Virus record (IMG/VR): IMGVR_UViG_3300042507_004091 | Coordinates: 1-38,099 of that record | Direction: 5' to 3' (one strand) | Length of the DNA: 38,099 nucleotides | Source: a virus | Program-made: the position numbers and the translations under genes | The notes under the pieces: model-generated | Told to the model about the DNA's origin: nothing | What the model saw: only the letters and a program-made list of their open reading frames with translations | Databases searched by the model: none | Shown: piece after piece, positions 7,090 through 37,102 of the stretch | Layout: each line of letters opens with the position of its first letter | Position numbering within the stretch: the first letter of the stretch is position 1

Positions 7090-10000
7090 TAGCCGATGAC
7101 GGTGACAGTGTAGTCTGAACCAGTGACAGACGACGCGAAGATCACAGTGACAGTGTCGGTTGTTGCCATCTGAATGTCGGTGTAGACCAGATCATAGGTG
7201 CTACCAGACTTGCGAACCTGCACGGTGACATCGCGTGTCCCAAGGTTGTGCGTAACCGTGAACGAGGTTCCTGTTCCAGACAAGGCTCCACTGAACTTCC
7301 GGCTCAACTGCTGCCACGCAGTGCCGTTGTGCATCTTGAGCACATTTCCGGTGGAGTAGTACAGGTCACCAGCCGCACCAGTAGGATCCGCTGCAAGGCC
7401 TTTAAAGTTGATCTGACCTGTATTTTTTACACGAAGTCGTTCGACTCCAGTTCCAGTGCTAGATGTCGCTATTACAACGTCGTTGTAGTTGTTCTGAAGA
7501 ACCGTGGTGTTTCCATCAGCTCCCCATAGCTGATAACTTAGAATATCAGCAGTGCTTCCTCCGCTTGTAAGCGATGAAATCTTTGATCCATACGGAAGAC
7601 GCATGGACCCGTTGATTGTAAGAATGAATCCAGATGCTGGGCTAACACCCAACCCAAGATTCCCATCCTTCGTCAGCCGCATCTTCTCCGACAATGTCGT
7701 CGCAGCGGTAGTCGTCCGCGTGACGAAGATCATGTCAGAGGTGCCGTTTACATCTCCGTTGTTCAGTAGCGACTTGATGCCAACGTGCGGGCGTTGCCCG
7801 TTTGCGGTTGCAGCACCAAGTAAAAGCAAGCCGCCGTTGTTCACCCCGTTGACGGTGTCCGACAAGAACAGCGCGGATCCGTCTCCGGAGTCGGAGACCG
7901 AGGTCGTTGCTTGGCCCACGCCTTGGATCTGTGCCGCGTTTAGCGCGGTCACATTCAATCCGACAGAGAAACGACCAGAGGAGTCAATCTGAGCGCGAAC
8001 AAGAGGAGTCAAAGGCTGGTTGGCGCCAGCAGCATTGTTATCAGAACCGTAGAAGACATGTGCTCCGTTGTTTTGGTAGTATTGAGTATACCTTCCGTTC
8101 GCGTAAAACCGCCACTGGTCGGAGAAGTACCCGTTGCTGACAACGCTTGTCGTTGTCCCTGTAGAAGAAATAGCACCCGCGTTTGCAAGGTTCAGAATTG
8201 CACCTCCACCCCAGCCACTAGGAGTGACTGCCAATCCAACGTTTCCGTTTGCGGCGATGGTAAGACGCTGGGTTGTGTTATCTTGAAAAATGAAATTCCG
8301 ATTGGAATCCGTGTAAATGTACCACGGATTCGTCTGCCCGCCTGCAACGAATCCAATCGCAGCCAGTCCAGATGCGCTGGTGTTTTTGAGCCGAAGCTCG
8401 GCTTGCCCATTATACTCGACGTGTAGCGGAAGCGTTGGAGTCGCCGTCCCGATACCAAGTCGTCCCGAGGCGTCGAGGGTCATCCTCTGCGTTAAGGCAC
8501 CAGTTCCGTTTTGTGATGTATAAAACGAAAGTGAAGACCCTACAGATACAGATCCGTTTACAATGTTCCGGATTTCGCTGTTTCCGCCAGAAAATGACGT
8601 ATTGTGAAACCGAAACGATGAGTACTGCTCACTTGCTGCTCCATATCCAACTGTGCTTGCTAGAAAAACAGAACTTTGAGATGAACCGACTTCGAGTTTG
8701 TATGCTCCACTTGGCGTCACCCCCAACCCAAGGTTACCGGAGGAGTCAATTCTCGCCTTCTCACCATTGATCGAGAACGAGATGAACCGGCCAGCAGGGG
8801 CTCCGATCTCGACGTTGGTAGTTGTTCCCCAAAGATAGCCAGATGGCGTATTGTTAATGCTTAGTCCGAAGATTGCTTCGTTCGATCCAGCAGAGGTGAT
8901 GTTTCCGCGATTTGCTGCCGTGTACTGAGCGATTCCGGGTCCAACCAACAAATTCCCCGAGGCGTCGAGGGTCATCTTATTTGTCCCCGCGTCTACTGGG
9001 TCTCCGCCTTGAGCGTTCGATTGGTAGAAGCACAGATCACCAAACGCCTCAACGTTCGAGCGGATGCTCCAATTCCGAGCACTCGAAGAGGAGCTGTTAG
9101 ACGTGAGTGTCAGCGCAGATTGAACTGCTCCGCCAATGTTGAGTTTCCGTACATTCGCAGTGTTTACCGGCGTCACCCCCAACCCAAGGTTGCCAGAGGC
9201 GTCCAGCGTCATTCGATCCGTGAACGTCTGTGATCCGATCGCAGCCTGATTTGAGTTCTGGAAATAGAATGCTCCAGTTACGTTTCGGATTCTTATGCCA
9301 GCATAATTGGATGAAACGCCTGTCCACCTCTGAAGATCAATGAACGGATCATCGCTAACCTGATCGACACGAACTCGAGGAGTTCCGGCTCCAGCAGGCA
9401 TTCCGATGTCCAACTGAGAGCTTGGTGTCGTTATTCCAATTCCAAGCCTGCTGTTCGTGTTGTCCCAATTGAAATTCGCGTTGAATCCAATCGAAGAAGT
9501 GCTCGAAGCAAACGGGATGCGGCCAGCAGTGTAGTTTGTGTCCTGCGCGAAGTGAAACACCCCACCAGACAGCACCATGCCGTTTCCGGCGGTGTAGGAA
9601 CCGGCTTGAGAGAACTTAACGAACGGAACCGGAGTCGTCCCAAGCGTGCCACCAGCATCAGCCGTACATACCCATCCAGAGTCTGCATTTGTTGAACCAG
9701 TTTCGATGAACGTGAATGCACCAACCAGCTCATCCCAAGTGTTGGCATCCAGCGATCGAGTCATCGCTGAAGCAGTTCCGTTCCAGATGTAGATACCGTT
9801 CTGCTGCGACAGACTCTGGTCCTTAACCAAGATGCGGGTGGTTCCGCTGGTGAAGGTTGTCGGATTAATACCGTCGATGAATCCAGATCCGGGTGCGCTT
9901 AGGTTGATGTCCGCAGTGGAAGCCACCAAGCAGCTCGACTTGATGTCCAAACCTTGAGCGACAGAGTCAACGTAGCCCTTGGTGGCCAGCGTGGAGCCGG

Positions 10001-22597: not shown

Positions 22598-22613
22598 TGT
22601 TCCACGTGGAACA
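22598..22613. promoter_or_regulatory. parS: parS-like centromere site (perfect 16-bp palindrome)
   Basis: TGTTCCACGTGGAACA is a perfect palindrome and fits the bacterial parS consensus TGTTNCACGTGNAACA, the binding site of the chromosome-partition protein ParB. It lies in a gene-free gap between the small terminase and the small-gene operon. No ParA or ParB gene is present in this genome. It may recruit the host ParB for partition of a carried phage genome, titrate ParB, or be bound by an unrelated phage regulator. Confidence 0.7.
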
Positions 22614-22622
22614 ATGGTGCGT

Positions 22623-22632
22623 TAGCGTTAAC
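22623..22632. repeat. Copy of the TAGCGTTAAC motif shared with the origin region
   Basis: TAGCGTTAAC occurs here and again at 24777-24786. A related TATCGTTAACG lies at 24841-24851, and a further GTGCGTTAGC core is shared between 22617-22626 and the minus strand near 23165-23174. The copies lie in the non-coding parts flanking the plus-strand island, so they may be binding sites for a replication or regulatory protein. Confidence 0.35.
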
Positions 22633-22669
22633 GAGACCCAGTTCCATGCACAGTAAAGGTTATATTCAA

Positions 22670-23569: not shown

Positions 23570-24265
23570 ATGAACGTCCACCTTACCCTAAAGTCCACCA
23601 ACGCAAAGACCGGACCGATTCCCGTCTCAACCTCCCCAAACTCAACCTGCCCTCCGGCTTGCCCCTTCCTCGGCGAAGGATGCTATGCTGACAATGGCCC
23701 GCTGAAAATCCACTGGTTGCAAGTCAGCAAGAGAACCCGCGGTGAACCTTGGAAGGTCTTCCTGTCCCGTGTCCGTAGCCTTCCGGAGTCTCAACTCTGG
23801 CGCCACAACCAAGCCGGGGACCTTCCCGGCGCCGGAAACCGGATTGACGCCGTCCGGCTGAACCAGTTGGCCAGTTCCAACAAGGGAAGGAAGGGCTTCA
23901 CCTATACCCACAAGCCTGTGATCCGGACCGAAGGCGTTCCTTCCAAAGTCGTCCAGGGCAATTTGCGGACAGTCAAAGCGGCCGTTGCCAAGGGCTTCAC
24001 GGTCAATCTGTCTGGGAACAACGTAGAGCATGCTGACCGCCTTGCCCGAACCGGCCTTCCGGTCGCGACAGTTGTCGCTCCTGGTGCTCCCGCTCGTTTC
24101 CTGACACCGGCCGGGAACAAGGTGGTCATTTGCCCCGCGCAGCGTTCGGAAACCACCACTTGCGCGACGTGCCGACTTTGTTCGCGAGCCGATAGGGGTT
24201 TCATGATCGGATTTTTACCCCACGGAACCGGAGCGAAGAAAGTCTCGGCCGTAGCCTGCCAGTAG
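23570..24265 (+). CDS. Cys-rich phage protein (DUF7227-like)
   Basis: A 231-residue protein. N-terminal cysteines form STCPPACPFLGEGCYA, which looks like a metal or Fe-S site. A central helical region follows (VVQGNLRTVKAAVAKGFTVN), and the C-terminus holds CPAQRSETTTCATCRLCSRA with four cysteines. The order matches an uncharacterised phage family annotated as DUF7227. The dense cysteines suggest iron-sulfur or radical chemistry, but no canonical CxxxCxxC SAM motif is seen. It is preceded by an AACCTACC leader instead of a Shine-Dalgarno sequence. Confidence 0.65.
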   Translation: MNVHLTLKSTNAKTGPIPVSTSPNSTCPPACPFLGEGCYADNGPLKIHWLQVSKRTRGEPWKVFLSRVRSLPESQLWRHNQAGDLPGAGNRIDAVRLNQLASSNKGRKGFTYTHKPVIRTEGVPSKVVQGNLRTVKAAVAKGFTVNLSGNNVEHADRLARTGLPVATVVAPGAPARFLTPAGNKVVICPAQRSETTTCATCRLCSRADRGFMIGFLPHGTGAKKVSAVACQ

Positions 24266-24733: not shown

Positions 24734-24763
24734 CCCCACCCTAGCAAGGTGGGGCTTTTCTTT
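24734..24763 (+). terminator. Rho-independent terminator of the plus-strand island
   Basis: CCCCACC (24734-24740) pairs with GGTGGGG (24748-24754) around a 7-base loop, followed by CTTTTCTTT. Position and orientation fit the end of the 23180-24714 transcript. Confidence 0.8.
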
Positions 24764-24775
24764 GCCCAGATTCCG

Positions 24776-25354
24776 ATAGCGTTAACCTGTAGCCAGCCGA
24801 TACCCCTATCCTTTATCGTTACCGGTTAACGTTAAACCTTTATCGTTAACGCCCGGTACTCCATTGGAGTAGGCCACTCCCCCCCCCATGGGCTGGGCAA
24901 CCTACGAGGAATCCTCGTGAGTTCGATTCCCCATAGAGACTCTGAAAATTCGGGTGGCCCACTTCTGGTTCCGAACCCCCCATAGGCTTCCTGGAAATTC
25001 GGAAATCTGGAAATCCGTTTTAAGACCCCCATACCCCATTTCCGCTGTCATCTACCATCCCGCCCATCAAAACGCCTCCTAGGCCCCTTTCCGGCGCAGC
25101 AATCGCCATTCCCGCCCATGGACCCAACCCCATTCCTGCACCCGCCTGCACATGAGCAGCATACGACCTTACCTCCATATGCGGCATATGCAGCATAGAG
25201 GAGGGGAGCTCCGGGGCCTCCGCCGCTTGGCCTCAAAAGCCAAGAAGCAGGCGAGGGGGACCCCGGAGCAGCCTACTTATTAGGTAGGCGTTATTGCCTC
25301 CCTATTAGGGGAGGATAGGCACCTTCTCTAGGTATTTGTTGAGAGCGGTGCCTA
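24776..25354. other. Candidate replication origin / structured non-coding region
   Basis: This stretch contains no convincing gene. It holds TAGCGTTAAC (24777-24786), two copies of CCTTTATCGTTA (24810-24821, 24837-24848), three perfect 15-base palindromes with one-base centres (24857-24871, 24904-24918, 25176-25190) and a 25-bp imperfect direct repeat (24929-24953, 24978-25002). Four consecutive hairpins follow (25208-25354). It is the largest gene-free region, lies where transcription direction changes, and adjoins the primase-helicase gene across one plus-strand gene. These traits together suggest an origin. Confidence 0.5.
25208..25354 (+). other. Four consecutive stem-loops before a promoter
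   Basis: Hairpin 1 (25208-25269) pairs GCTCCGGGG with CCCCGGAGC and has inner stems CGCC/GGCG and CTTGGC/GCCAAG around CTCAAAA. Hairpin 2 (25271-25289) pairs GCCTAC with GTAGGC. Hairpin 3 (25297-25314) pairs CCTCCC with GGGAGG. Hairpin 4 (25316-25354) pairs TAGGCACC with GGTGCCTA and has an inner CTCT/AGAG stem. Loops 2 and 3 both carry TATTAG or a close variant. There is no U-tract. It could be single-strand origin structure, an RNA element or a protein-binding array. Confidence 0.55.
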
Positions 25355-25372: not shown

Positions 25373-25401
25373 TTGACCGTCTTCTCCTTTTCAACTATCG
25401 C
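25373..25401 (+). promoter_or_regulatory. Promoter of the coiled-coil gene
   Basis: TTGACC (25373-25378), a 17-base spacer, then TATCGC (25396-25401). The predicted transcript would start only a few bases before the ATG at 25411, giving an almost leaderless message. The -10 match is moderate. Confidence 0.45.
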
Positions 25402-25410
25402 TTACATCCT

Positions 25411-26037
25411 ATGGCCTACATCTACATCGACGGCAAGACTACCACACTGCGTGCTCAGTTCAGCAGCATGCCCCCAATGACCCATGATCCGAACCCGGAG
25501 GACTCCGATGTTCTGGCCCACATCATGGAAACCATGGATGTGCCCATGGAGGTGGCTCAGAAGGCGTTCAACTCCATGAGGAATCCCAGCAGCCGGGTTC
25601 TCATCTACGATCGCGTGCATGCTGCATGGCATGGCTGCGAATGGCTTCCTGATACGGAGAAGGACGCCGACCTGATGATGAACCGCAAGCTGGGGGAGAT
25701 TAAGAAGGACATCCAGCGCGACAAGACCTGGACCCGCAAGCGCGAGAAGGAGATCAAGAAGCTCAACGAGGACATGGACGAGATCTACGCCCGTGTGGAC
25801 GCGATCAATGCCACCCTGGCTGAATGGAAAAACCTCCTGCCAAGCCTCGAGAAGACTCTCGGTGGGCTACAGCAGGAGGTGAAGACGCTCAGCGATCTGA
25901 AGGCGGAAGTTGGTTCAAAGTACCGCTTCCTGATTGGCTCTGACGAGCTGCAGGACGAGCGCCTCGCCTTCCTCGAGAAGCGCCTTGGGATTGACTATCT
26001 TGCCGGAACACCAGCGGATTCCACTCAACCCAGTTGA
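25411..26037 (+). CDS. Coiled-coil protein of unknown function
   Basis: A 208-residue protein. The N-terminal 70 residues are a small globular region (MAYIYIDGKTTTLRAQFSSM). Residues about 85-190 form a strongly charged coiled coil (KKDIQRDKTWTRKREKEIKK, LAEWKNLLPSLEKTLGGLQQ). It is the only large plus-strand gene outside the island. Its 3' end overlaps the convergent primase-helicase gene by 149 bases. A structural or replication-associated role is possible. No domain is recognised. Confidence 0.65.
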   Translation: MAYIYIDGKTTTLRAQFSSMPPMTHDPNPEDSDVLAHIMETMDVPMEVAQKAFNSMRNPSSRVLIYDRVHAAWHGCEWLPDTEKDADLMMNRKLGEIKKDIQRDKTWTRKREKEIKKLNEDMDEIYARVDAINATLAEWKNLLPSLEKTLGGLQQEVKTLSDLKAEVGSKYRFLIGSDELQDERLAFLEKRLGIDYLAGTPADSTQPS

Positions 26038-27754
26038 TTCCCTCGGAGGAATGGGCAATGGGCAGTACAGCCCGTGGGAGGCGGCCGCCACGCTTACAGA
26101 ACGCGAGCCTGAACTTGCGTGGGGTGTGGTGGCCGACCTCCTGTATGACAGCGATCTCGCGAGCCCAGTTGGTCAGCTCGCTGGATCCGAAGCCTGAGTA
26201 GGCCAGCTCCATGAGGGTTGGCGGCTCCCCATCGCGTTCCTTGGCCGGCTTGGCGATGTGATGGATCCAGATCCAGCAGACTCCGGTGGACTGCAGGATG
26301 GGCTGGAGCTGGTTGCGTAGGAACAGAGAGACCGACTCTTGGTTCGATAGGTCCGATCCGAAGTAGGACAGGAGCGGGTCGCAGATGATCATGTCCAGCT
26401 TGGCCTTGATGATGAAGCGCCGGGCGTAGTCGAGGAATGCGGCGCCGGTGCGGACGGTCTCGGTCCGGAAGGATAGGTTGGCCCGCAGACGCTCGTGCTC
26501 CTCAGGGTTGAGTCCTAGACCCCGGGCGACACCCTGGAAGGCTTCTGCGAGATCACCGGTGTTGTTCTCGGCCTGCACGACGCCGATGCGTAGCGGTCGT
26601 TCGCCGCCGATGCCGAAGAAGTCGCGGCCGACTGCCCACTGCATGCAGAGCTGCATCAGGAGCGAGGACTTACCGATGCCGGATCCACCGGACAGGATCA
26701 TGGAGGAGCCGCGTGTCAGCCACCGGTTGCCGACGAGGTTGTCGGGATCGTTGGTGGGCGAGAAGGCGATGAGGTCATCGACCGAGACGGCGGTGTCGGT
26801 GTCGCCGGCCAGCTCGAGGTTCTGCTGCCACACCTCGAATGTCTCGGCTCCGACATGAGTGGCGAGCAGGCGTTGTCGTTCCCCGGATCGGTGGGCGCCG
26901 GGCAAGCGTGAGTAGCGTGATGGGTTCTTGTTCTTGGGATCGATGCCCTGGGCTGCGAGCGTGTTGTAGATGATGTCCCGACGCTCGTCCCACTGGGCGC
27001 GGTCGACGGCATCGACGCGGACCCATGCGTGGATGGACTTGCCGCCTGAATCGATCAGGACGGTGATGGGTAGGCCGGAGTCGACGAGGATCTTGCGCTG
27101 CTCTTCCTTGGCCGACGCATCCATCTCGACGAGCACATGTCGGTAGGAGGACACAGCCTTGTCAGCGCCCGAGTAGTCGTTGGCGATGAATGGATTGATG
27201 CGGACGAATGCGCCCATGCCGGCGGGGCTCAGGAGCGGAGAGTCTGGCCCACTGAACCGTTCGATCCACTGCTCGCGAGTCAGGAAAGAACCGGTGCTCT
27301 GAGGCTTGCCCTCGTCGGACACATCATTGCAGATGCAGACCACCTCATCCTGAACGAATGCCGCCTTTAGGAAGGCCACGAACTCCTCCCCGGGAATCTG
27401 AGGCTGGCTGGACTCAGTCATCAGCACAGGCGTCTTGCTCGGTAGCTTGTAGCGCGTGATGTCGACCTTGGCAGCCGGCGTGGACTCGTGCCCTGCGTTG
27501 AGCAGGTAGCCGCGTGGAAATCCGAACGGCTGCGTGGACGCCTGCTTCAGCTTGTGAGTGAGATCCCGCGAATGCCATGGTGGTTGGCAGGACCGGTTCC
27601 ATTCCTCGAGGAGATCGTAGGCGTCTCGGATATCGAGGCAGAATCCCCAGCACAGGCCGCGTGCAGCGGTGAAGGTCTGGTTGTGGCCACCTTGACCCGA
27701 GATGGCAGGAGGGAGCTTTGCGAGCCAGAGTCTGGCCCGCTCAATGGGTGTCAT
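25889..27754 (-). CDS. Primase-helicase (AEP-type primase with RepA/DnaB-like ATPase)
   Basis: A 621-residue protein. Residues 16-72 resemble the helical PriCT-type primase domain (ending WNRSCQPPWHSRDLTHKL). Residues about 205-290 fit an archaeo-eukaryotic primase core: a strand ending LVEMD, the SGGKSIHAWV motif and SRLPGAHR. A RecA-like ATPase follows with Walker A GGSGIGKS (356-363) and Walker B LDMIICDP (453-460), plus a WIHHIAKP segment. The C-terminus is a basic, low-complexity tail. A GGAGG site lies before the ATG. It would prime and unwind the phage genome and hand over to a host polymerase, since none is encoded. Confidence 0.8.
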   Translation of the reverse strand: MTPIERARLWLAKLPPAISGQGGHNQTFTAARGLCWGFCLDIRDAYDLLEEWNRSCQPPWHSRDLTHKLKQASTQPFGFPRGYLLNAGHESTPAAKVDITRYKLPSKTPVLMTESSQPQIPGEEFVAFLKAAFVQDEVVCICNDVSDEGKPQSTGSFLTREQWIERFSGPDSPLLSPAGMGAFVRINPFIANDYSGADKAVSSYRHVLVEMDASAKEEQRKILVDSGLPITVLIDSGGKSIHAWVRVDAVDRAQWDERRDIIYNTLAAQGIDPKNKNPSRYSRLPGAHRSGERQRLLATHVGAETFEVWQQNLELAGDTDTAVSVDDLIAFSPTNDPDNLVGNRWLTRGSSMILSGGSGIGKSSLLMQLCMQWAVGRDFFGIGGERPLRIGVVQAENNTGDLAEAFQGVARGLGLNPEEHERLRANLSFRTETVRTGAAFLDYARRFIIKAKLDMIICDPLLSYFGSDLSNQESVSLFLRNQLQPILQSTGVCWIWIHHIAKPAKERDGEPPTLMELAYSGFGSSELTNWAREIAVIQEVGHHTPRKFRLAFCKRGGRLPRAVLPIAHSSEGINWVEWNPLVFRQDSQSQGASRGRRGARPAARQSQSGSGTLNQLPPSDR

Positions 27755-27766
27755 GGCGGTTCCTCC

Positions 27767-27970
27767 TTACTCGACGAACCGAGTGAATGTCATCAAGAGG
27801 AAGTAGATGCCAAGGAGGCAGAGCCCGACGCCGAGTCCGAAGGACAGGACAAAGCGACGAGCTTCCTCTCTGAGCTGCACGAAATAGATCAGCACCCAGG
27901 ACACCGCGATGAGTGCGGATGCAAAGACGCCGAAGCCGTTGATGATTGCGAAGAATTCTTGTGAGGTCAT
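27767..27970 (-). CDS. Small two-pass membrane protein
   Basis: A 67-residue protein with hydrophobic helices at about residues 8-30 (INGFGVFASALIAVSWVLIY) and 42-62 (LSFGLGVGLCLLGIYFLLMT), joined by a charged loop LREEARR. It lies in the replication operon between the 44-residue gene and the primase-helicase. The leader carries CAACCTACATC. A superinfection or membrane-signalling role is possible. No family is recognised. Confidence 0.65.
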   Translation of the reverse strand: MTSQEFFAIINGFGVFASALIAVSWVLIYFVQLREEARRFVLSFGLGVGLCLLGIYFLLMTFTRFVE

Positions 27971-27988
27971 TGGATGTAGGTTGGTAGC

Positions 27989-28123
27989 CTAGTCTTTCTT
28001 GTTCTTGAAGTACTCGACCTGAAGCATGCGCTTGATGGCCTGCTTCTTGGATGGGTAAGTACCCATCTCCTTCTTGTGGGTCTTAGAAACGACGGTGTAA
28101 CCCTTTTTGGATTTCTTGATCAT
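27989..28123 (-). CDS. Small basic protein
   Basis: A 44-residue frame: MIKKSKKGYTVVSKTHKKEM and then GTYPSKKQAIKRMLQVEYFK. It is very basic. The pattern (a strand hairpin, a Tyr-Pro turn, then a helix ending QVEYFK) is one I recall in tiny phage proteins that probably fold like small nucleic-acid-binding domains. It overlaps the preceding gene by 41 bases. The frame is too short for standard gene-length cut-offs. Confidence 0.6.
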   Translation of the reverse strand: MIKKSKKGYTVVSKTHKKEMGTYPSKKQAIKRMLQVEYFKNKKD

Positions 28124-28334
28124 AGTGCTTCTTCAGGTCTGCGACGGTGAGCTTCTTCTGGTAACTCATCCAGCCGCGATCGATGGCCTTCTGGACAATG
28201 CTCTTTGCCTCGGCGAGTAGATCACTGTTGGACATGTGCAAGGTGCTCTTTTCAGTAGTTGTCATGGGACGAGGTTTCTTTGCCTCTTCGAGGCGATGTT
28301 TGTACCAAGCGGATTCTTTGCGGTCCCGTTTCAC
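28083..28334 (-). CDS. Small basic helical protein after the resolvase
   Basis: An 83-residue protein starting at GTG, which overlaps the resolvase stop (GTGA at 28331-28334). Later ATG codons (MTTTEKST at 28265) are an alternative. It is Lys/Arg-rich and helical (HRLEEAKKPRPM, LLAEAKSIVQKAIDRGWM). It could bind DNA or assist the resolvase. The family is not recognised. Confidence 0.55.
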   Translation of the reverse strand: MKRDRKESAWYKHRLEEAKKPRPMTTTEKSTLHMSNSDLLAEAKSIVQKAIDRGWMSYQKKLTVADLKKHYDQEIQKGLHRRF

Positions 28335-28786
28335 TTCTGATTTTGCCTTGCGTAACTCAAGAGCAGCAGCGCGTCTGCGTTTTGCAAGGTGACATCGATC
28401 TGCGGGTACAGTTCCTGCGCTTTGTTTCTGAGCTTCCGCTTCCATTCAGGCTGCGTTGCACAGGACTTGCGACCACCGAGCCCGAGCGGCTCCTGCCACT
28501 TGACGGGAGGCACACGATGCAGGGAATAGCCGAGGGCTACAGCAGCGCCTTTGATGATGCCGAAGTTGTCGAACAGGACAGCGGTTGTGGAGGACGGGAT
28601 CGCTTTGCCAGCGAACTTCGGGATGTCCTCGATCCACAACTCCGAGACAGAGGTTTTGTTGAGAGACAGGAGCCTCACGATGTCGGTTAGGGTGTCCGGC
28701 ATGGAGTGTGTTGCGATCTCGTTGTCGATCAGGCAGGCGAAAGCGCCGGAGACGCCGGGGTCGCAGGCGATGATGGTCTTTTGCAT
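28331..28786 (-). CDS. RuvC-like Holliday junction resolvase
   Basis: A 151-residue protein starting MQKTIIACDPGVSGAF. The first strand with Asp9 (IIACDPGVSGA), Glu53 (LWIEDIPKF) and Asp138 (QNADALLLLSYA) match the RNase H-fold RuvC/poxvirus A22-type catalytic residues. It would cut branched DNA during recombination or before packaging. The start lies inside the helicase 3' end (58-base overlap). A longer upstream frame is not credible because its N-terminus is the antiphase of the helicase. It is flanked by recombination genes. Confidence 0.8.
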   Translation of the reverse strand: MQKTIIACDPGVSGAFACLIDNEIATHSMPDTLTDIVRLLSLNKTSVSELWIEDIPKFAGKAIPSSTTAVLFDNFGIIKGAAVALGYSLHRVPPVKWQEPLGLGGRKSCATQPEWKRKLRNKAQELYPQIDVTLQNADALLLLSYARQNQK

Positions 28787-30270
28787 AGTTGCGCGATGTA
28801 GGTTGATGCTTGTTGTTTTGAGTAACGGGAAGCGAACTTGTGGCCACGCTGCATGAGCAGCTTCACCTGCTTCGGTGTAGCCAGCTCGCGGCGTCCGCGT
28901 GCCATGAGAGAATCGATCAGTGCAGAGGCTTGGCCCTTGTTGGCAATGCGACGAGCGTCGAATCCGTAGCTGGCCAGAAGTGCAGCCTGCTTCTCGGAAA
29001 CGGGCTCCAGGTGCCACTTCATGGTGGCCTCGTAGTCGACGACGTTTGCGTCTGCGGTTGCCATGCCCCACTCGATCGGATCGATCAGTCGGCCAGCGAA
29101 ACGCTTTTTCTTGGCCAACTCCGCAGCCAGCTTGGCCTCGCGTTCCTTGCGTGCCTCATCAGCCGCTGCCTCTGGATCGAACTCACCCTGGGTGGTGGTG
29201 TTCTTGTCAGCGATCTCAGCGACCTCGCCATCAGCGAACAGCGACGTGGGTCGGATGAGCCGGTGTTTACCAGTCATCCACAGAAAATCCAAAATGAGCA
29301 GGTTCTGTTTGCCGTCCGCCAGCCGGGTTCCTCGACCAACAATCTGGGTGTAGAGCGCACGGCTCTTGGTGGGCCGCAGGCAGACGATGGTGTCGATGGT
29401 GGGCTCGTCGTAGCCTTCGGTGAGCAGCATGGCGTTGCAGAGGACGCCGGAGTCCACCTTGGCGAACCACTCGATGGTCTGTGCCCGGTCGTCCGATGTG
29501 CCGTCCACATGCCGGGCATTGAAACCACGGGCTGTGAGCATCTCGGTCATCAGCTTTGAGGTGCTGATGAGCGGCAGGAACACGAGGACCTTCTTGCCGC
29601 CGTACTTCTGTATCTGCTCGATGATCTGGGCGAAGAGCGGCTCGATGGCGTTGGCGCACTCGCTTGCCTCGAAGTCTCCGGCACGAATGGCGACCTTGGT
29701 CAGGTTGATGGACAGGTCACAGACGCGGACTCGGATGGGAGCTAGGAACCCCTGCTTGATCAGGTCGGCCAGAGTCAGCTCGTAGGCGACATCGTCGAAG
29801 TGATCGCCGAGGCTGCGCTGGTCAGCACGGTCAGGTGTGGCAGTGACACCCAGCAGCCTGGCACCGCTGAAATGCCGAATGACAGCTTGATAACTGTCTG
29901 CGGCGACGTGGTGCGTCTCATCGATGATGATGTGGGTGAAGTGATCGGGCGCCCACTGCGTGCAACGGCGCATGAGGGTCTGGATGGATCCGACGACCAC
30001 CTTGGCATCGCGATCGCCAACGCAGTCTGCACGCTCTAGGGATGCCTTGAGTCCGGTCGCAGACTCCAGCTTGGCGATGGCCTGATTGAGAAGTTCCTCA
30101 CGATGCGCCACGATCAGGACCCTGCCGGGCAGGCGATTGGCGATGTGGGAGAAGATGATGGTCTTGCCAGCCCCGGTTGGCAGGACAACGAGGAGCCGGC
30201 GGAAGTCGTTCCACTTGGCCAGCACTTGACTGACACACTCCTCTTGATAGGGTCTGAGCCGCAGTTGCAT
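28729..30270 (-). CDS. SF2 (DEAD/DEAH-box type) helicase
   Basis: A 513-residue protein. Motif I is LPTGAGKT (30-37), motif II is DETH (117-120) followed by His121, TATP (143-146) is motif III, and motif VI is QIVGRGTR (309-316). The N-terminus carries the Q-like motif RPYQEECV. The C-terminal region (LATPKQVKLLMQRGHKF) is a small helical module seen at the ends of several phage SF2 helicases. It probably remodels recombination or replication intermediates. The leader is AAACCTACACAAGAACA without a Shine-Dalgarno sequence. Confidence 0.85.
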   Translation of the reverse strand: MQLRLRPYQEECVSQVLAKWNDFRRLLVVLPTGAGKTIIFSHIANRLPGRVLIVAHREELLNQAIAKLESATGLKASLERADCVGDRDAKVVVGSIQTLMRRCTQWAPDHFTHIIIDETHHVAADSYQAVIRHFSGARLLGVTATPDRADQRSLGDHFDDVAYELTLADLIKQGFLAPIRVRVCDLSINLTKVAIRAGDFEASECANAIEPLFAQIIEQIQKYGGKKVLVFLPLISTSKLMTEMLTARGFNARHVDGTSDDRAQTIEWFAKVDSGVLCNAMLLTEGYDEPTIDTIVCLRPTKSRALYTQIVGRGTRLADGKQNLLILDFLWMTGKHRLIRPTSLFADGEVAEIADKNTTTQGEFDPEAAADEARKEREAKLAAELAKKKRFAGRLIDPIEWGMATADANVVDYEATMKWHLEPVSEKQAALLASYGFDARRIANKGQASALIDSLMARGRRELATPKQVKLLMQRGHKFASRYSKQQASTYIAQLCKRPSSPATPASPALSPA

Positions 30271-30288
30271 TGTTCTTGTGTAGGTTTA

Positions 30289-30326
30289 CCCCCGAGGAGT
30301 TGGTAGCTCCCCGGGGGTTTTTGTTT
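30289..30326 (+). terminator. Rho-independent terminator facing antisense to the replication operon
   Basis: CCCCCG-A-GGAG (30289-30299) pairs with CTCC-C-CGGGGG (30307-30317) with one A-C mismatch and a 7-base loop, followed by TTTTTGTTT on the plus strand. All nearby genes are on the minus strand, where the hairpin is preceded rather than followed by the A/T tract. It would therefore stop plus-strand (antisense) transcription coming from the 26 kb side. Confidence 0.7.
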
Positions 30327-30344
30327 CCCCACCTTGCCTTTCGG

Positions 30345-30731
30345 CTAGAAAGCCTCTTCGGGCGCCTTATTGAGGCGCTTCACGCGCAGGTAATCTCCGT
30401 CCTGATCGACAGTGATCGACAGCCGTTGGCCAACCCAATGGGTCAGCAGGTTGGTGAGAGATCCGGGCTTGGACAGATCGAACTCCTGGCCATCAGGCAG
30501 ATCGACGTTGGTGACAGACGCCAGCAGGTTGATCCGCCACATCTGGGTCTCCTTGGCGTAGAACCTATCGGTGATGGAGCAGCCATCATCGGAGCGGTAA
30601 CGCAGCAGGGTTGGGATGTCTCCGTTGCGGTCCAGAGGACCATCCTTCACGGACTGGATGCTGACGGTGTATGTGCCGGGACCTGCAAAGGTCTTGGTCT
30701 CGGCTTCGGAACGGTTGAGTGTGAACTTCAT
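30345..30731 (-). CDS. Single-stranded DNA-binding-like protein (DUF669-type)
   Basis: A 128-residue protein from the ATG at 30731 (MKFTLNRSEAETKTF). A longer frame to 30908 overlaps the exonuclease deeply. It is beta-rich, with the pattern AGPGTYTVSIQSVKDGP, then RYRSDDGCSITDRFY and GSLTNLLTHWVGQRLSITVD, typical of DUF669-like proteins found beside RecT and exonuclease genes. It would protect single-strand DNA made by the exonuclease. The start follows the exonuclease stop by 2 bases. Confidence 0.65.
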   Translation of the reverse strand: MKFTLNRSEAETKTFAGPGTYTVSIQSVKDGPLDRNGDIPTLLRYRSDDGCSITDRFYAKETQMWRINLLASVTNVDLPDGQEFDLSKPGSLTNLLTHWVGQRLSITVDQDGDYLRVKRLNKAPEEAF

Positions 30732-30733
30732 GT

Positions 30734-31534
30734 CTATTCTTGGGTTGTAGGTTTGAACGCCCAGTTGGGCAGTGTTAATTTCTCCACCGCTGTGGAATAT
30801 CCAGGCCATGAGTTGAATTCCTGGCAGGATTTGAAGAACTCGAGCTGCTTGTCGATCTCGGCGTTGCCTTGGTCGATCGCAGCCTGATCCATCTCGTAGA
30901 CCGCGCACTCATAGGGTGCTGTCTTCTCGATGGCGATGAAGATGAAGCGCCGCTTGTTTGGGAAGAAGCGCAGATACCATGCGGCCTGCACATGATACCG
31001 AAGCTGGGCGGCAGTCTTGGCGAAGGCAGCCGGGGAGGCGTCCTGTGTCGTCTTGATGTCGGCCAGTGAATCGTACAGCTCACGATGATCCGGGAGCAGG
31101 TCGATGCGTGCCTTGACGTTGATCGTGTCGAAGGTTCCGAATGCGGACACTTCTGTGTCGCCGGCGTAGAGTGCCTTCCCTGCAGCCGGATGTGACATCA
31201 GGGACAGTTTCATGGCCTCGATGCTATCAGCGGTCTCCCGTGTGATGATCGTGGCTCCTGACCCCTGAAGAGCCTCGTAGGCTTCCTTGCCGCCCTTCGT
31301 GCGACGATCACCCTCGAAGATGACGTACCGCTTGGCGTACTCATCACGCTCTAAGACCGCGCAGTGGAAGGCAGAACCGAAGACCATGGCAGGAGTTGCC
31401 TCCTCCTTAGCTCCTTCGAGCCAAGCCTTGTAATGGGCAGGCGACCGCTGGAACTGATCCAGCCCGGACTTCGAGAGGGCCACAGTGCTGTGGTACTGCT
31501 CGGCCGGCATGTGATAGACCAGCTTGGCGCTCAT
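30734..31534 (-). CDS. RecE/exonuclease VIII-like nuclease
   Basis: A 266-residue PD-(D/E)XK nuclease. Residues 53-57 (GSAFH) match the N-terminal GxxxH motif. Catalytic residues are Asp145 (KARIDLLPD), Asp159 and Lys161 (LADIKTTQ), and Gln177 with Tyr180 (QLRYHVQAAWY). It would resect double-stranded ends to give single strands for the RecT-like partner, whose stop overlaps this start (ATGA at 31531-31534). The start carries GGAGG. Substrate polarity is assumed from the family. Confidence 0.85.
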   Translation of the reverse strand: MSAKLVYHMPAEQYHSTVALSKSGLDQFQRSPAHYKAWLEGAKEEATPAMVFGSAFHCAVLERDEYAKRYVIFEGDRRTKGGKEAYEALQGSGATIITRETADSIEAMKLSLMSHPAAGKALYAGDTEVSAFGTFDTINVKARIDLLPDHRELYDSLADIKTTQDASPAAFAKTAAQLRYHVQAAWYLRFFPNKRRFIFIAIEKTAPYECAVYEMDQAAIDQGNAEIDKQLEFFKSCQEFNSWPGYSTAVEKLTLPNWAFKPTTQE

Positions 31535-32304
31535 CCGACCACCTCCGCAGTCTCGATCTTGGGCAGCTTGGAGAGGATCAGGTCAGGCTTGCTGATGACC
31601 TTGCTGGCCACATCAGTCGGGAGGTCGCGGAAGTTCTGGCCTTCCTTGATCTTGCCGGTGGTGACGAGAAACGCATTGACCTCTTCCTCGCGGGCCTCGA
31701 ACAGGGCCTCGAGCTTACCGATGACAGCAGAGTCGTCGGCCTTCGCAACAGTGACCTTCGGCGACTCGGCACCGAAGTCCTGAGCTTCCTCCGGGGTGTA
31801 GATGCCCATGACCACCTCTGGGGCTATCATGCGGATCGCCTTTGAGATCAATCTGGCGCGGAGCATGGCGGCAGGATCCTTCTGCCAACCGGAACCCGGC
31901 TTCCCGGGATACAGACCAGCAGCCTTGGCGTCGTCGAGTGAGTAGCTGATGTCGATCTCGTTGCCGTCGTACTTCCATGTGGCCGAGGCGATCTTCGAAT
32001 CGAACTGCTTCCAGATGACCTTGCCTCCCCGGGCACGGTAGCCGGCGAGCATGGCGTCAGCCCGCATGGTGGGCTGTCCATTCACCAAGTGGTAAGTGCG
32101 CTTGATGTCGAAGGGCGACTTCTTCTCAGCCAGGCACTGCATGGCGATGATGTGACCCTGTTCGACCTTGGTGCATCCGAACATTCCAGAGGAAGAGATC
32201 CACTCTCCGAGCTGGGCAATGGCGCTGATGGGTTCAGCGATACGGTCGTAGACTTCATTGGCAGCCGAAGGGGCAGCCACTGCGAGTTGCATGTTGTTGT
32301 TCAT
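31531..32304 (-). CDS. recT: RecT-like single-strand annealing protein
   Basis: A 257-residue protein. The core has FDIKRTYHLVNGQPTMRADA, then a strand set (KVIWKQFDSKIASATWKYDG) and the helical motif WQKDPAAMLRARLISKAIRM, which is the signature of RecT/Redbeta-type annealing proteins. The C-terminus is variable and acidic. It pairs with the RecE-like exonuclease and the single-strand binding protein for strand annealing. The ATG overlaps the stop of the helix-turn-helix gene, and the leader is A/C-rich. Confidence 0.85.
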   Translation of the reverse strand: MNNNMQLAVAAPSAANEVYDRIAEPISAIAQLGEWISSSGMFGCTKVEQGHIIAMQCLAEKKSPFDIKRTYHLVNGQPTMRADAMLAGYRARGGKVIWKQFDSKIASATWKYDGNEIDISYSLDDAKAAGLYPGKPGSGWQKDPAAMLRARLISKAIRMIAPEVVMGIYTPEEAQDFGAESPKVTVAKADDSAVIGKLEALFEAREEEVNAFLVTTGKIKEGQNFRDLPTDVASKVISKPDLILSKLPKIETAEVVG

Positions 32305-32531: not shown

Positions 32532-35500
32532 TTAGGGTGTCTTGCTGGTTCCGAAATCGGGCTCCTTTCCGGTATTGGCGTACTCGGTCAGAGCGGAAAG
32601 AGCTTGAGCCGTTGGGATATCCTTCAATTTCTCAAGCATCCTGGCCGTTTTCTCGACGTTCCTGATGCCTGTGGCTCCAACGGTTCTGGACAGGAACTTG
32701 GACGCGATTGCAGGGCCGGCATAGTTTGCAAGAACGCCAGAGGCGAATCCGATTCCACCTCCAATAACTGCTTTTCCTACATTGCCAGTTGCCATGGCTG
32801 TTCCGGCACCACCAACGGCTGCTGCGGTAAGGTTGCTGGCCAACTGCCCGTAGGTCTGGCCTCTCTGAGTGATTCCAGCACCACCTGCGATTTGTTCAGC
32901 GCGTTTGATTGCAGTGAGCCCCGGGATCAGATCCGTCTCGACTCTTCGGAGTAGATTTCGACCAAGCATCTCCTCGTACTGATTTCTGAGGTCCTTGTTG
33001 GCCAAGTCTCTTTGAAGCTGTTCTAGATCTAAGCTACCCAAACCCTTGGATACACCCTCTTTTGTTCTTCCAAACAGCATGTCCTCGAGAACCACTGCCC
33101 GAGTATTGTGAATCGCGTCTTGAGCGGCTTTACGAGTTGCCGGACTCGCTGCCGCTGTCGACATCGTCTCCAGATTCCGCATCACTGTTGCGATGTCCGT
33201 GATATTGTTCAGCATCGGAGTCAGGGCGGGAATCATTCGCATTCCAGCAGCGGAATCCAGCTTGGTCACGTTCTCCAGTGTCTTGGCAAGGTTCTCTGAC
33301 TTAACTAGAGAGCCTGATGCCCTTTGAACTTGATCGAACTTCTTTGCCAGATCTTTCAGTTCGCTTGGAGTTCCGAATCCCCAAGCCTGCATAGATCCAG
33401 GATTCCGTTCTTCAAACACCGTAATCCTAGTCAGGAAATCCTTGAAGTCAGCGCCTGTCGGTTTCATCAGGCTGCTCTCAACCATGTTGTTGAGACTGTT
33501 GAACTTGTTCAGTTCAGAAACATCTCCAAGACCCAACTTAGCAAGCGAACCGGCCGACTTGGATTCGATAGTGGTCAGAATGTTGGCCAGCTTGTTCCTG
33601 TCGTTTCCTGCCTTGGCCATGATGTAGCCCCTGATCATGTCATTGACACCGCTGACATCAGGAACGTTTACCCCTTCAGCCTTAAGCTGAGAGACAAGAT
33701 CCATCAGGTTGGTGTAAGCCGGAGCCGCAGCGCCTTCTTTCTCAATCGCCTGACCAAGCGTTTCAGCCATGGTTCCAGGCTTCGCCTTGATGTCTGCGAA
33801 CGCCTTGTTGACGAAGTAGCTATCCCACAACGGGCGAATCTTCTTGTATGTTTCGTTCGCCTTGAAGAGTTCATCTGCAATGTTCTGTCCGAATGCGGAT
33901 GCTGCTTGCGATTCGATGGTATCGTTGATCGCGTCGGCTAACTGCAAAGTCTCAGCCTGTATAGGTTTGCCATAGGCTTGGCCACCGTAATTTGAGAACG
34001 CGTAAACCTTATCCCTGAGTTTCCTCAGTTGAGTCAGTGAAACGTTCTTAGGAACATCAACATCGTCGACAACATCCTTGAGCGTTTCAGAGAACTGCTT
34101 GGTGTTGATTCCGTATGATGGAAGCTGTTTCTCGAATCTGTTTACGACATCAATCAGCGACTCTCCGCTGCTTGTGGCGACAGATGGATCAAATGCAGGA
34201 TTGTCCTGAACAGTCCTGACGTTCTTGTACAAGTCATTCTTGAACGTGTCCCAAGATGACTTGAGGCTTCCAGTTTCTCCACCGATCAAGTTCTCGAGTT
34301 CGTATCCAGCTTGAATCGGTTCGTATTTCTTTGGTGTTCCTGCCGGGAAAGCTCTTCCAACAGCAGCCTGCTCCATTCCTGGCAATGCAGCTTCAGCCCT
34401 TTTACCCAAAGACTCGCGCTGCGCTTCCGCAGCTCCCTGAGTGGATCTGATGTAGTCCTTGATCTTGGACTGGCCAGATCTTAGACCTTTAGCCCTAGCT
34501 TCAGCCGTCGCCGTCAATGCTCCAGTTCCAGCAGCAGCGGCAGTCTGTGCAGCCTCTTCGGCTCCAGACTTCATCTTCGATATGGCGTCGGTCAATGCGT
34601 TGACAGCGTTTTTTGCATTGGTCGATTTTGATACGATCGACTGCACTTCAGGCACGCCAAGCAGATCGATGACGTTCTTGTAGACATCCTGGACACTGGG
34701 ACTTGCTAATGCAGATCCGCCAGGAAGCGCAGTGATTTGCCTTTCAAGATCACGTTGCTGTTGAGCCAAGATGTCTGAATACCTTGTGGATCCCAGCTTA
34801 GCTTCAGCACGTTGAAGGACGCCGGCGCTTTCTGGAAGCACCTGCGGCAACGTCGGCTTCACACCCAACTTCTCGATCGTTTCAGCAAGTTTGACAGCTC
34901 TCTCTGCAGCCCTTCTTACAAACCCTGCTCCCCTTCCAACACCAGAAGGAGCGCCAACGATTGCGGATGGCAACACCACGTCCTTTGCGATCTCCGTTGG
35001 GCTGAAAACATCTTTGCCCTCCATACCGCGTTGCACCATACCACCCAGGGCGCTTGTGCCTGCGGTCTGAGCCATGATGGATGGAACACGCCCTCCAGGA
35101 ACGACGGCGCTCCTGATTGGAGCAGCAGCCAGCTCTGCAGGACGATATTTTCCGGGCTCAACGGTCTGCCCAAGGATTTCTCCGACCTCTCCAAGCCCAG
35201 CATACTTCAGCAACTGAGCCGCAGTGCTAGGAGATGGCCTTCCTCGACTGGCAACAGCCTCAATGAGGAACGGAGCCACTCGAGCAGCCATTCCACCCAT
35301 TTCGCGAGCCGTAGTAAGCCTGCCACGCTCTTCGGCGAGGCTTTGAGGCTGACGAGTCATCCCGTACCCGGCAGCAGCCGATGGCGGAGCAGCAGTCATC
35401 CTTGGCTTCTCAGCCTCGGCCTGCTCCATTGCTGCCTTAGCCCGCTGCGTGTATTCCGCAATGACCTTGGCTTTGACTTCCGGAGAGACGTCAGAATCGA

Positions 35501-35543
35501 ACTCGAGTTCTGGACCTCCAGGGATTTGTACGACTTCAGCCAT
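32532..35543 (-). CDS. Large internal virion / DNA-ejection-like protein
   Basis: A 1003-residue, mostly helical protein rich in Ala, Glu, Lys and Gln. It starts MAEVVQIPGG with a helix up to residue 60, has several long coiled-coil regions, and near residues 910-950 a Gly/Ala-rich stretch (GGAGTAMATGNVGKAVIGG and then GIGFASGVLANYAGPAIAS) that may insert into membranes. This shape fits internal virion proteins ejected to form a channel. It is the last gene of the tail/internal series, just before the replication operon promoter. No transglycosylase motif is visible. Confidence 0.6.
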   Translation of the reverse strand: MAEVVQIPGGPELEFDSDVSPEVKAKVIAEYTQRAKAAMEQAEAEKPRMTAAPPSAAAGYGMTRQPQSLAEERGRLTTAREMGGMAARVAPFLIEAVASRGRPSPSTAAQLLKYAGLGEVGEILGQTVEPGKYRPAELAAAPIRSAVVPGGRVPSIMAQTAGTSALGGMVQRGMEGKDVFSPTEIAKDVVLPSAIVGAPSGVGRGAGFVRRAAERAVKLAETIEKLGVKPTLPQVLPESAGVLQRAEAKLGSTRYSDILAQQQRDLERQITALPGGSALASPSVQDVYKNVIDLLGVPEVQSIVSKSTNAKNAVNALTDAISKMKSGAEEAAQTAAAAGTGALTATAEARAKGLRSGQSKIKDYIRSTQGAAEAQRESLGKRAEAALPGMEQAAVGRAFPAGTPKKYEPIQAGYELENLIGGETGSLKSSWDTFKNDLYKNVRTVQDNPAFDPSVATSSGESLIDVVNRFEKQLPSYGINTKQFSETLKDVVDDVDVPKNVSLTQLRKLRDKVYAFSNYGGQAYGKPIQAETLQLADAINDTIESQAASAFGQNIADELFKANETYKKIRPLWDSYFVNKAFADIKAKPGTMAETLGQAIEKEGAAAPAYTNLMDLVSQLKAEGVNVPDVSGVNDMIRGYIMAKAGNDRNKLANILTTIESKSAGSLAKLGLGDVSELNKFNSLNNMVESSLMKPTGADFKDFLTRITVFEERNPGSMQAWGFGTPSELKDLAKKFDQVQRASGSLVKSENLAKTLENVTKLDSAAGMRMIPALTPMLNNITDIATVMRNLETMSTAAASPATRKAAQDAIHNTRAVVLEDMLFGRTKEGVSKGLGSLDLEQLQRDLANKDLRNQYEEMLGRNLLRRVETDLIPGLTAIKRAEQIAGGAGITQRGQTYGQLASNLTAAAVGGAGTAMATGNVGKAVIGGGIGFASGVLANYAGPAIASKFLSRTVGATGIRNVEKTARMLEKLKDIPTAQALSALTEYANTGKEPDFGTSKTP

Positions 35544-35548
35544 ATGTC

Positions 35549-37102
35549 TTAGTAAGCTGTTCCAGCACTATTGATGCGAACCCGATTGGTAGCCCCAGTA
35601 GATCTAGCGGGTTGAGGTGCAGGCAAAGCAGGCGCAACCTGCACTGGAGCGTTTTCAGTAATCAGTTCCTCGAACGGAGCCCAGTTGATCTTCGATCTCT
35701 CGGCCTTGTACGCATTGATTATTGGATCGACAGCATCATCGTACACTCCCATTCCGGAATACATGCCCCACCGCTGAGAAGGCTTGTTCCTGAAGATTTT
35801 ATCCATGAATTGGATCGCTCGCGGCAGGAACTCAGCAGACTCCTTGTTGCCAAACAGGTCCAGCGCACTAGCAAGCTCGCTATTGGTTAGCGATGCACCG
35901 AAAAGAGTCTTCCTTTCTTTAGAAACGATACCTTCAAACTCTTGGACAATAGATCTGACAGCTTCCCTCTGTTTGTCGTTTCCAAAGTAAGCGGATCCAG
36001 CCTTGTCCAGCTTGGCCTTCAATGTTGCAAAATTTTCAGCAGATATCTCGGCAAGATTCTTTGATCCAGAAAACTCAGAGACCTTTTTGATAAACCCAAG
36101 AGCATCCATCATTTGCCCCGGAAGCTCATCAAGTGTCTTTCTAAGTGCCGTGTTTTTAGATATAGGCTGTTTAACTCGCAGGATATCCTGCATGCGATTA
36201 TCCATCCTCACCGCTGAATAAGGAGATGTGTCAAACAGGTATTTAGCCTTATCAGCATCACCGCTGTTGTATGCATCCAATATGTCTTTATATCTTTTCT
36301 CTATTGCTTTGGCATTCTTCTCTGCTGCCGTCTCCTTGTTTTGTTCGATCATCCTCTCTGCGGTGCTCTTTGCAGCGATGACTTGAGCATTGTTAAGCCC
36401 TTCAGTTGTGATCTTTTGATCTTCAGGGGCTGAAGCATTGTACCTGTTAAGCCACTCTCTTGCGATATCAGCCTGACGATCATAAGAGTATTGGGATGAT
36501 TGCTCTTGAGAGAGCACTGCTTTCTTTCTGGAAAGCAACGCATCAAGTCCCGCTGTGGGTGTGGCAGGATCAAACTTAACATCCAATGCGTTTAGCTGGG
36601 CAATTATTCTTGGCCGGCTCATCTCTTCTTCAGCCAGAGTTCTGGCCCTCATGCCATACATTTCAGAGGCAGCCTTAGAGGCTGCGGTTTGGAATGCTGG
36701 GCTCGCAGCCTGTTCCTGAGTCGGGATATCCGAATATCCGAATCCAGTACGAGTTCCAGCTTCAGCCATGATCGCATTCTTGGCCTGCTGAGATCTCAGC
36801 ATCTGAGCCATGTCGAACACATCCATCTTCTCGGGCTGTTGACCCGGTTGAAGCTGAACCCCTTCAGTGAGCATCTGACCGATCAGTGCTCGTCGCATTT
36901 GACGATCAAGAGATCGTTCCTCACCTCGCTCGCTGAAAGTCTCCTGCCGAAGCATCTGCCGAAGCCGCTCCGCCTCCTGAGCCTGGCGGGTCTTTCCAGT
37001 GACGCCTCCATAGATCCCGCCGGTAAGCAGGTTCAAGATGTTGGCACCAACACTAGGCGTATATTCGGCTGCCTTTTCGATGTCTTGAAAGGTCTGGGCC
37101 AT
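35549..37102 (-). CDS. Internal virion / ejection-region protein
   Basis: A 517-residue, mostly helical protein. The start (AEYTPSVGANILNLLTGGIY) resembles a motif in the neighbouring 141-residue gene (MSRLGNLLTGGLLGEATGTN), suggesting a shared ancestor or a repeated binding module. The rest is rich in Gln, Ala and Lys with coiled-coil segments (LRQMLRQETFSERGEERSLD). It is placed between the large internal protein and the 141-residue gene, the usual site of podoviral ejection proteins. Confidence 0.6.
   Translation of the reverse strand: MAQTFQDIEKAAEYTPSVGANILNLLTGGIYGGVTGKTRQAQEAERLRQMLRQETFSERGEERSLDRQMRRALIGQMLTEGVQLQPGQQPEKMDVFDMAQMLRSQQAKNAIMAEAGTRTGFGYSDIPTQEQAASPAFQTAASKAASEMYGMRARTLAEEEMSRPRIIAQLNALDVKFDPATPTAGLDALLSRKKAVLSQEQSSQYSYDRQADIAREWLNRYNASAPEDQKITTEGLNNAQVIAAKSTAERMIEQNKETAAEKNAKAIEKRYKDILDAYNSGDADKAKYLFDTSPYSAVRMDNRMQDILRVKQPISKNTALRKTLDELPGQMMDALGFIKKVSEFSGSKNLAEISAENFATLKAKLDKAGSAYFGNDKQREAVRSIVQEFEGIVSKERKTLFGASLTNSELASALDLFGNKESAEFLPRAIQFMDKIFRNKPSQRWGMYSGMGVYDDAVDPIINAYKAERSKINWAPFEELITENAPVQVAPALPAPQPARSTGATNRVRINSAGTAY

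Follow-up and report, generated by a model that had tools for sequence, protein, structure and literature searches.

What is the function of the gene-free region at positions 24776-25354 of a freshwater phage genome? The window analyzed here is the whole stretch of 38,099 nt that makes up the IMG/VR virus record IMGVR_UViG_3300042507_004091. Its two ends are identical over 127 bases and it therefore closes into a circle of 37,972 bp. The same 127-base end overlap is present in the relative G026. Presumably, it is the assembly overlap of a circular graph and not a natural repeat.

The window encodes a terminase, a portal, a major head protein, an exonuclease, a RecT-like protein, a helicase and a primase-helicase. 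The nearest matches of the large terminase are found in Akkermansia phages, which makes a host from the Verrucomicrobiota a reasonable guess. One relative of the gene adjoining the region (25411-26037) resides in a Pirellula bin and may point to a different host. No prophage was found by a search with the primase profile, and a nucleotide search in named phages gave no match. Two large genes (32532-35543, 1003 aa, and 35549-37102, 517 aa) have no PHROG match and no Pfam match above the cut-off.

The initial annotation proposed a replication origin on account of repeats, palindromes and hairpins. According to the sequence comparisons and analogies reported here, the region is probably a phage replication origin of the stem-loop kind that would operate with a primase of the archaeo-eukaryotic (AEP) type.

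Features of the gene-free region

All features of the proposed array exist, at the positions given or very close to them (Table 1). The three 7+1+7 palindromes are exact, the two 12-base direct repeats and the four adjacent hairpins were located, and the 25-nt imperfect repeat pair (24929/24978) shows 76% identity. A second imperfect pair is located at 25043/25095 (72%). The region was described as free of genes, and nothing convincing was found in it; two small minus-strand ORFs are crossed by indels in close relatives. The primase-helicase gene indeed points at the region, with a 208-codon plus-strand gene lying in between and overlapping the end of the primase-helicase gene. The array is flanked by a terminator and by the promoter of this plus-strand gene.

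The clustering of these features exceeds chance. Three of the 11 perfect palindromes of the window (arms of at least 7) are located within the region, where 0.098 are expected on average from a Markov-1 model of the region; three or more occurred in 0 of 3000 simulations. Furthermore, the right half folds 5 SD better than its shuffles (z about -5), as DNA or RNA and on either strand.

Table 1. Features of the gene-free region and its flanks
Feature	Position	Strand	Remarks
Intrinsic terminator, closes the upstream plus-strand operon	24734-24754	+	Stem sequence replaced in L003, stem kept
GTTAACG/CGTTAAC cluster, including the 12-base repeats CCTTTATCGTTA at 24810 and 24837	24777-24851		Deleted in L003 and L004
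Palindrome 7+1+7, perfect	24857-24871		Arms partly altered in relatives
Palindrome 7+1+7, perfect	24904-24918		Both arms invariant in the 6 close relatives covering the site
Three copies of the 11-mer CTGGAAATTCG, iteron-like	24942, 24991, 25007 (24942-25017)	+	About 90-95% conserved, close clade only
Conserved block CATCAAAACGCCTCCTAGGCCCCTTTCCGGCGCAGCAATCGCCAT	25065-25109	+	Best-conserved primary sequence upstream of hairpin A in 17 aligned representatives
Palindrome 7+1+7, perfect	25176-25190		Disrupted in L002 and L008
Hairpin A, a stem-loop with bulges; outer stem GCTCCGGGG/CCCCGGAGC (25208-25216 with 25261-25269)	25208-25269	+	Fold, covariation, shuffles
Hairpin B GCCTACTTATTAGGTAGGC	25271-25289	+	Usually ACTCCC..GGGAGT in relatives
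Hairpin C CCTCCCTATTAGGGGAGG	25297-25314	+	Followed by (R)TAGC in most relatives
Hairpin D TAGGCACC/GGTGCCTA	25316-25354	+	Long in the window's own clade only
Promoter TTGACC-17-TATCGC, sigma-70-like; ATG 9 nt further	25373-25401	+	Same layout in most relatives
Gene with predicted winged-helix N-domain and long coiled coil; candidate origin-binding factor	25411-26037	+	264 relatives
Primase-helicase gene: AEP/PrimPol primase and T7 gp4/DnaB-like helicase	25889-27754	-	Convergent with the plus-strand gene

Conservation among close relatives

Seven contigs, in which the amino-acid identity of the primase is 97-99%, are regarded as close relatives. An unrelated sequence in place of the region would have spoken against an origin, but no such replacement was found. 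Most of the noncoding region shows a nucleotide identity of about 90-96% in the contigs covering it, similar to the neighboring genes. Among these genes, one of the better conserved (23570-24265) strongly matches Pfam DUF7227 (E 4e-84), a family whose function is not known. In L002, an insertion of about 600 bp is present within the noncoding region (8300-9100 of that contig).

The individual features are of unequal importance. The GTTAACG motifs and 12-base repeats are missing from two close relatives, L003 and L004, and are therefore not regarded as essential. Hairpins A-C are retained in all relatives, unlike the repeats and the palindrome at 25176. Hairpin A of L002 and L008 has a different outer stem, ACAGCGGG/CCCGCTGT, which pairs equally well. 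This replacement with retained pairing pointed to the hairpins as the part under selection. The repeats and palindromes of the proposed array are clade-specific and partly dispensable. Apart from the hairpins, the 45-base block 25065-25109 is the only clearly conserved primary sequence upstream of the element.

A three-part hairpin element with conserved structure

The core of the region is a three-part structure (25208-25314), in which a bulged hairpin with a perfect outer stem of 9 bp is followed by two short hairpins. The unpaired bases of the inner stems of hairpin A are mainly on the 3' side. For distant comparison, 264 relatives of the adjoining gene were collected from viral contigs and the best 80 of the 264 were kept. 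A descriptor, in which an outer stem of 7 bp or more precedes two short hairpins, was run on loci L055-L131. In each of the 75 kept loci that have upstream DNA, it located the element 94-143 nt upstream of the gene. In G002, G003, G005 and the contig from the Pirellula bin the element was identified by eye. In total, 44 distinct element sequences were obtained.

The outer stem occurs in 12 different (unrelated or altered) sequences, all of which are perfectly paired, whereas shuffled partners never pair; as most of these arms were picked by a descriptor that requires pairing, covariation and descriptor shuffles serve as the unbiased controls. In an 11-sequence alignment the covariation is 0.440, compared to 0.133 ± 0.029 after shuffling (reached in 0 of 500) and 0.06-0.15 with the partners slid. 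The observed descriptor scores are attained by 12 of 12 real representatives and by 0 of 300 dinucleotide-model shuffles. When both strands of seven long contigs were scanned, the element was found once in each, with two other hits in total.

A covariance model trained on other clades found held-out elements of four groups with E-values from 2e-11 to 1e-4, at the right place and on the right strand. Most of the clades held out were recovered by model R1, which missed the window, G002 and G003; its register is wrong in hairpins B and C. MAFFT over all clades misaligns the stems as well. For these reasons, the analysis relies on the descriptor scan and on direct pair counts. The primary sequence is conserved in a loop (TTTAG) and a tail (TAGC). 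A search of Rfam 15 at gathering and relaxed thresholds yielded no family match, only hits at chance level (e.g. mir-296). The element is real, strongly conserved in structure and undescribed both in Rfam and in the literature found.

Such a structure may also be that of an RNA. In the interval from the terminator to the winged-helix gene's promoter, the plus strand could be transcribed into a structured noncoding RNA that controls replication or has a target in trans, such as a host defence or the primase. The strong covariation, the bulged-stem architecture typical of RNA, a recurrent T.G pair of hairpin C on the plus strand and the conserved loop and tail argue for it. The plus strand folds better than the minus strand in 14 of 15 representatives, which fits a plus-strand RNA at least as well as DNA. 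On the other hand, sigma-70-like promoters upstream of the element did not exceed chance in a plus-strand scan, while the gene's own promoter stands out in most cases, and in this clade a terminator lies just upstream. The lack of any Rfam match is also unfavorable, as is the absence of G.U from 96 outer-stem pairs of 12 clades (mostly picked with a Watson-Crick descriptor), which is unusual for RNA. Altogether, an RNA is rather unlikely. If it were one, the element could tentatively be assigned to an undescribed structured RNA class of a large group of freshwater phages, coupled to an undescribed family of winged-helix genes, and would represent a new, widespread phage RNA.

The location just before a promoter would also suit a double-strand transcription insulator or terminator between the two operons that has no role in replication. 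A T run is found at the end of the outer stem in several clades (AAAAACCGC..GCGGTTTTT). However, the stem lacks a following T run in the window, L059, L062, L073 and G003, so that in the window and the three L loci the arrangement of an intrinsic terminator, a stem and then a T run, is lacking. In addition, a good terminator is already present 450 nt upstream in the window, and conserved inner bulges are not expected of a terminator. This function is quite improbable.

The adjoining gene and the primase-helicase

In the predicted structure of the product of the adjoining gene, the N-terminal domain is made up of helices and a beta wing, and a long coiled coil comes next. Its best fold matches are weak and belong to winged-helix proteins (best E 0.005-0.04); a match to a phage AAA-domain protein has a probability of 1.00 but an E-value of 0.005. 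The product thus looks like a winged-helix/coiled-coil protein in the predicted model. Named phages and plasmids contain no match to the gene, and its sole match in the genome collection is a 3.3-kb contig of the Pirellula bin, in which the element is also present.

Compared to solved structures, the primase-helicase profile matches the PrimPol AEP domain 6zp9 (E 6e-5) and T7 gp4. For the helicase domain, the matches are T7 gp4 and Pfam AAA_25 and not SF3. With a pLDDT of 51, the AlphaFold model of the primase was too poor to be used. The winged-helix profile and the primase profile do not match each other.

Among the 60 loci with enough downstream DNA, the primase gene is directly convergent on the adjoining gene in 47. 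In the remaining 13 the replication module is oppositely oriented, and the primase is located elsewhere in every examined contig of at least 35 kb. The primase is present in all examined contigs of this length, and all carriers of the element that are complete enough to judge encode an AEP-type primase fused to a T7-like helicase. In both orientations of the module the element stays before the winged-helix gene. The module of the window, from primase to RecT (25889-32304), has the opposite orientation to that of relatives such as G002, G003 and G005. One boundary of the inversion lies between the winged-helix gene and the primase gene, the ends of which overlap in the window.

Hairpins and palindromes also mark packaging starts and sites of site-specific recombination, and the region could in principle be either. 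Nothing found here points specifically to one of them, the genome encodes no tyrosine integrase or serine resolvase, and the element travels with the winged-helix gene by the replication module, not with the terminase genes. A packaging or recombination site is therefore highly improbable.

GC skew

An inflection of the cumulative GC skew had been named as a check of the origin. The minimum is indeed near the region, at about 25,524, which is 113 nt past the start of the adjoining gene. Excluding G005, which starts too near the element, 14 contigs can be compared: 8 have the minimum at most 300 nt from the gene start, and 13 have it at most 2.5 kb away. The agreement is weak in genomes with an inverted module, where the minimum is mostly 1.1-2.5 kb upstream; in the fragment G020 it is 4.4 kb downstream.

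For minus-strand genes, the all-position skew on the plus strand is -0.129 to the left of the region and +0.076 to the right. As genes of the same strand have opposite skew on the two sides, a change of transcription or coding strand alone is insufficient as an explanation. The third-position skew to the left is near zero (-0.031). Further turns of the skew are located near 17 and 32 kb in the window. Due to these additional turns, the skew supports an origin but does not prove it.

Proposed mechanism of the probable origin

An origin remains the best explanation of the region. In agreement with it, the structure is kept by compensatory changes, its position in front of the winged-helix gene is constant, it occurs together with the primase-helicase and a skew minimum lies nearby. 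The initial proposal is nevertheless supported only in part, because the skew has further turns, because the conserved part consists of the hairpin cluster and the block 25065-25109 and not of the palindromes and repeats, because the structured RNA still competes with it and because we infer the origin activity itself.

For binding, opening, priming and the strand used, we infer the following course. An initiator would bind to the conserved block and, in this clade, also to the iteron-like 11-mers. Most likely, the initiator is the adjoining winged-helix/coiled-coil protein. The duplex would then open and hairpins A-C would be extruded. Finally, the primase-helicase would be loaded and lay the first primers beside the structure.

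A parS-like palindrome

A perfect 16-bp palindrome, TGTTCCACGTGGAACA, is located at 22598-22613. It is identical to chromosomal parS2/parS3 of Pseudomonas aeruginosa (PMC4368675). L003, L005 and L006 have the exact 16-mer between differing flanks, and it is absent from the other 28 contigs with the hairpin element. In viral contigs it occurs at least 120 times, compared to 54 times for a control palindrome. No ParB_N domain was found in the phage. SGI1 borrows the ParB of its helper plasmid (PMC10954446) and, by analogy, the phage may borrow that of its host. The motif GTTAACG/CGTTAAC is confined to two gene-free stretches of the window, 24777-24851 and 22619-22633, the latter adjoining the parS-like site. 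Possibly, these stretches are a shared operator.

Comparison with known systems

No DnaA boxes (TTATNCACA) are present in the window, and the region therefore does not correspond to a bacterial DnaA-box origin. With Rfam families of structured RNAs the element shares covarying stems and conserved loops, but it matches none of them beyond chance, either at the gathering threshold or at relaxed E-values.

In RSF1010, RepB' primes at the hairpin sites ssiA and ssiB, together with the RepA helicase (PMC4434180). Both systems combine an AEP-type primase with a hexameric helicase, and the short hairpins that serve as priming sites in RSF1010 (PMC4434180) have a predicted counterpart here. Unlike RSF1010, in which each strand has one ssi whose priming starts at a GTG located 3' of the stem, the phages have a single element on one side, oriented and present once per genome in the seven contigs scanned. 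The structure is much larger, the GTG start motif of the pRN1 and RSF1010 primases is not conserved in it and no iteron origin with RepC was identified across clades. Because the element is single and oriented and the GTG is not conserved, it is outside the ssi type.

The closest analogue is the Sulfolobus plasmid pRN1, which needs a 100-bp stem-loop located 3' of its AEP primase-helicase gene in order to replicate (PMC4234260). The shape of this stem-loop is conserved and its sequence is not, and the symmetry of the stem mattered experimentally (PMC4234260). Similar stem-loops were proposed for phages, including phage BIP-1 (PMC4234260). As in the orf56/orf904 replicon of pRN1, a noncoding stem-loop with conserved flanks, whose structure is conserved and whose sequence is poorly so, is found near the gene of an AEP-type primase-helicase in the same replicon. 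This analogy favors a stem-loop origin over a structured RNA. The element may work like the pRN1 stem-loop or the RSF1010 ssi sites.

There are also differences to pRN1. The phage element comprises two further hairpins besides the bulged one, and its companion is the winged-helix gene instead of the primase gene. The SF3 helicase and winged helix that are united in one protein of the pRN1 type are not found in that form; the helicase is T7/DnaB-like and the winged-helix domain looks like a separate protein. Since the helicase is not of the SF3 type, the element is outside the pRN1 type as defined.

The origins of most metagenomic phages are not recognizable by sequence. Here, shape, position and partner gene would define one, and together they provide a search signature across highly diverged genomes; the candidate fragment is 350 bp in length. 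If the proposed origin is correct, the pRN1 style of stem-loop origin extends to phages with a DnaB-like helicase, which would suggest that the origin-binding domain became a separate protein.
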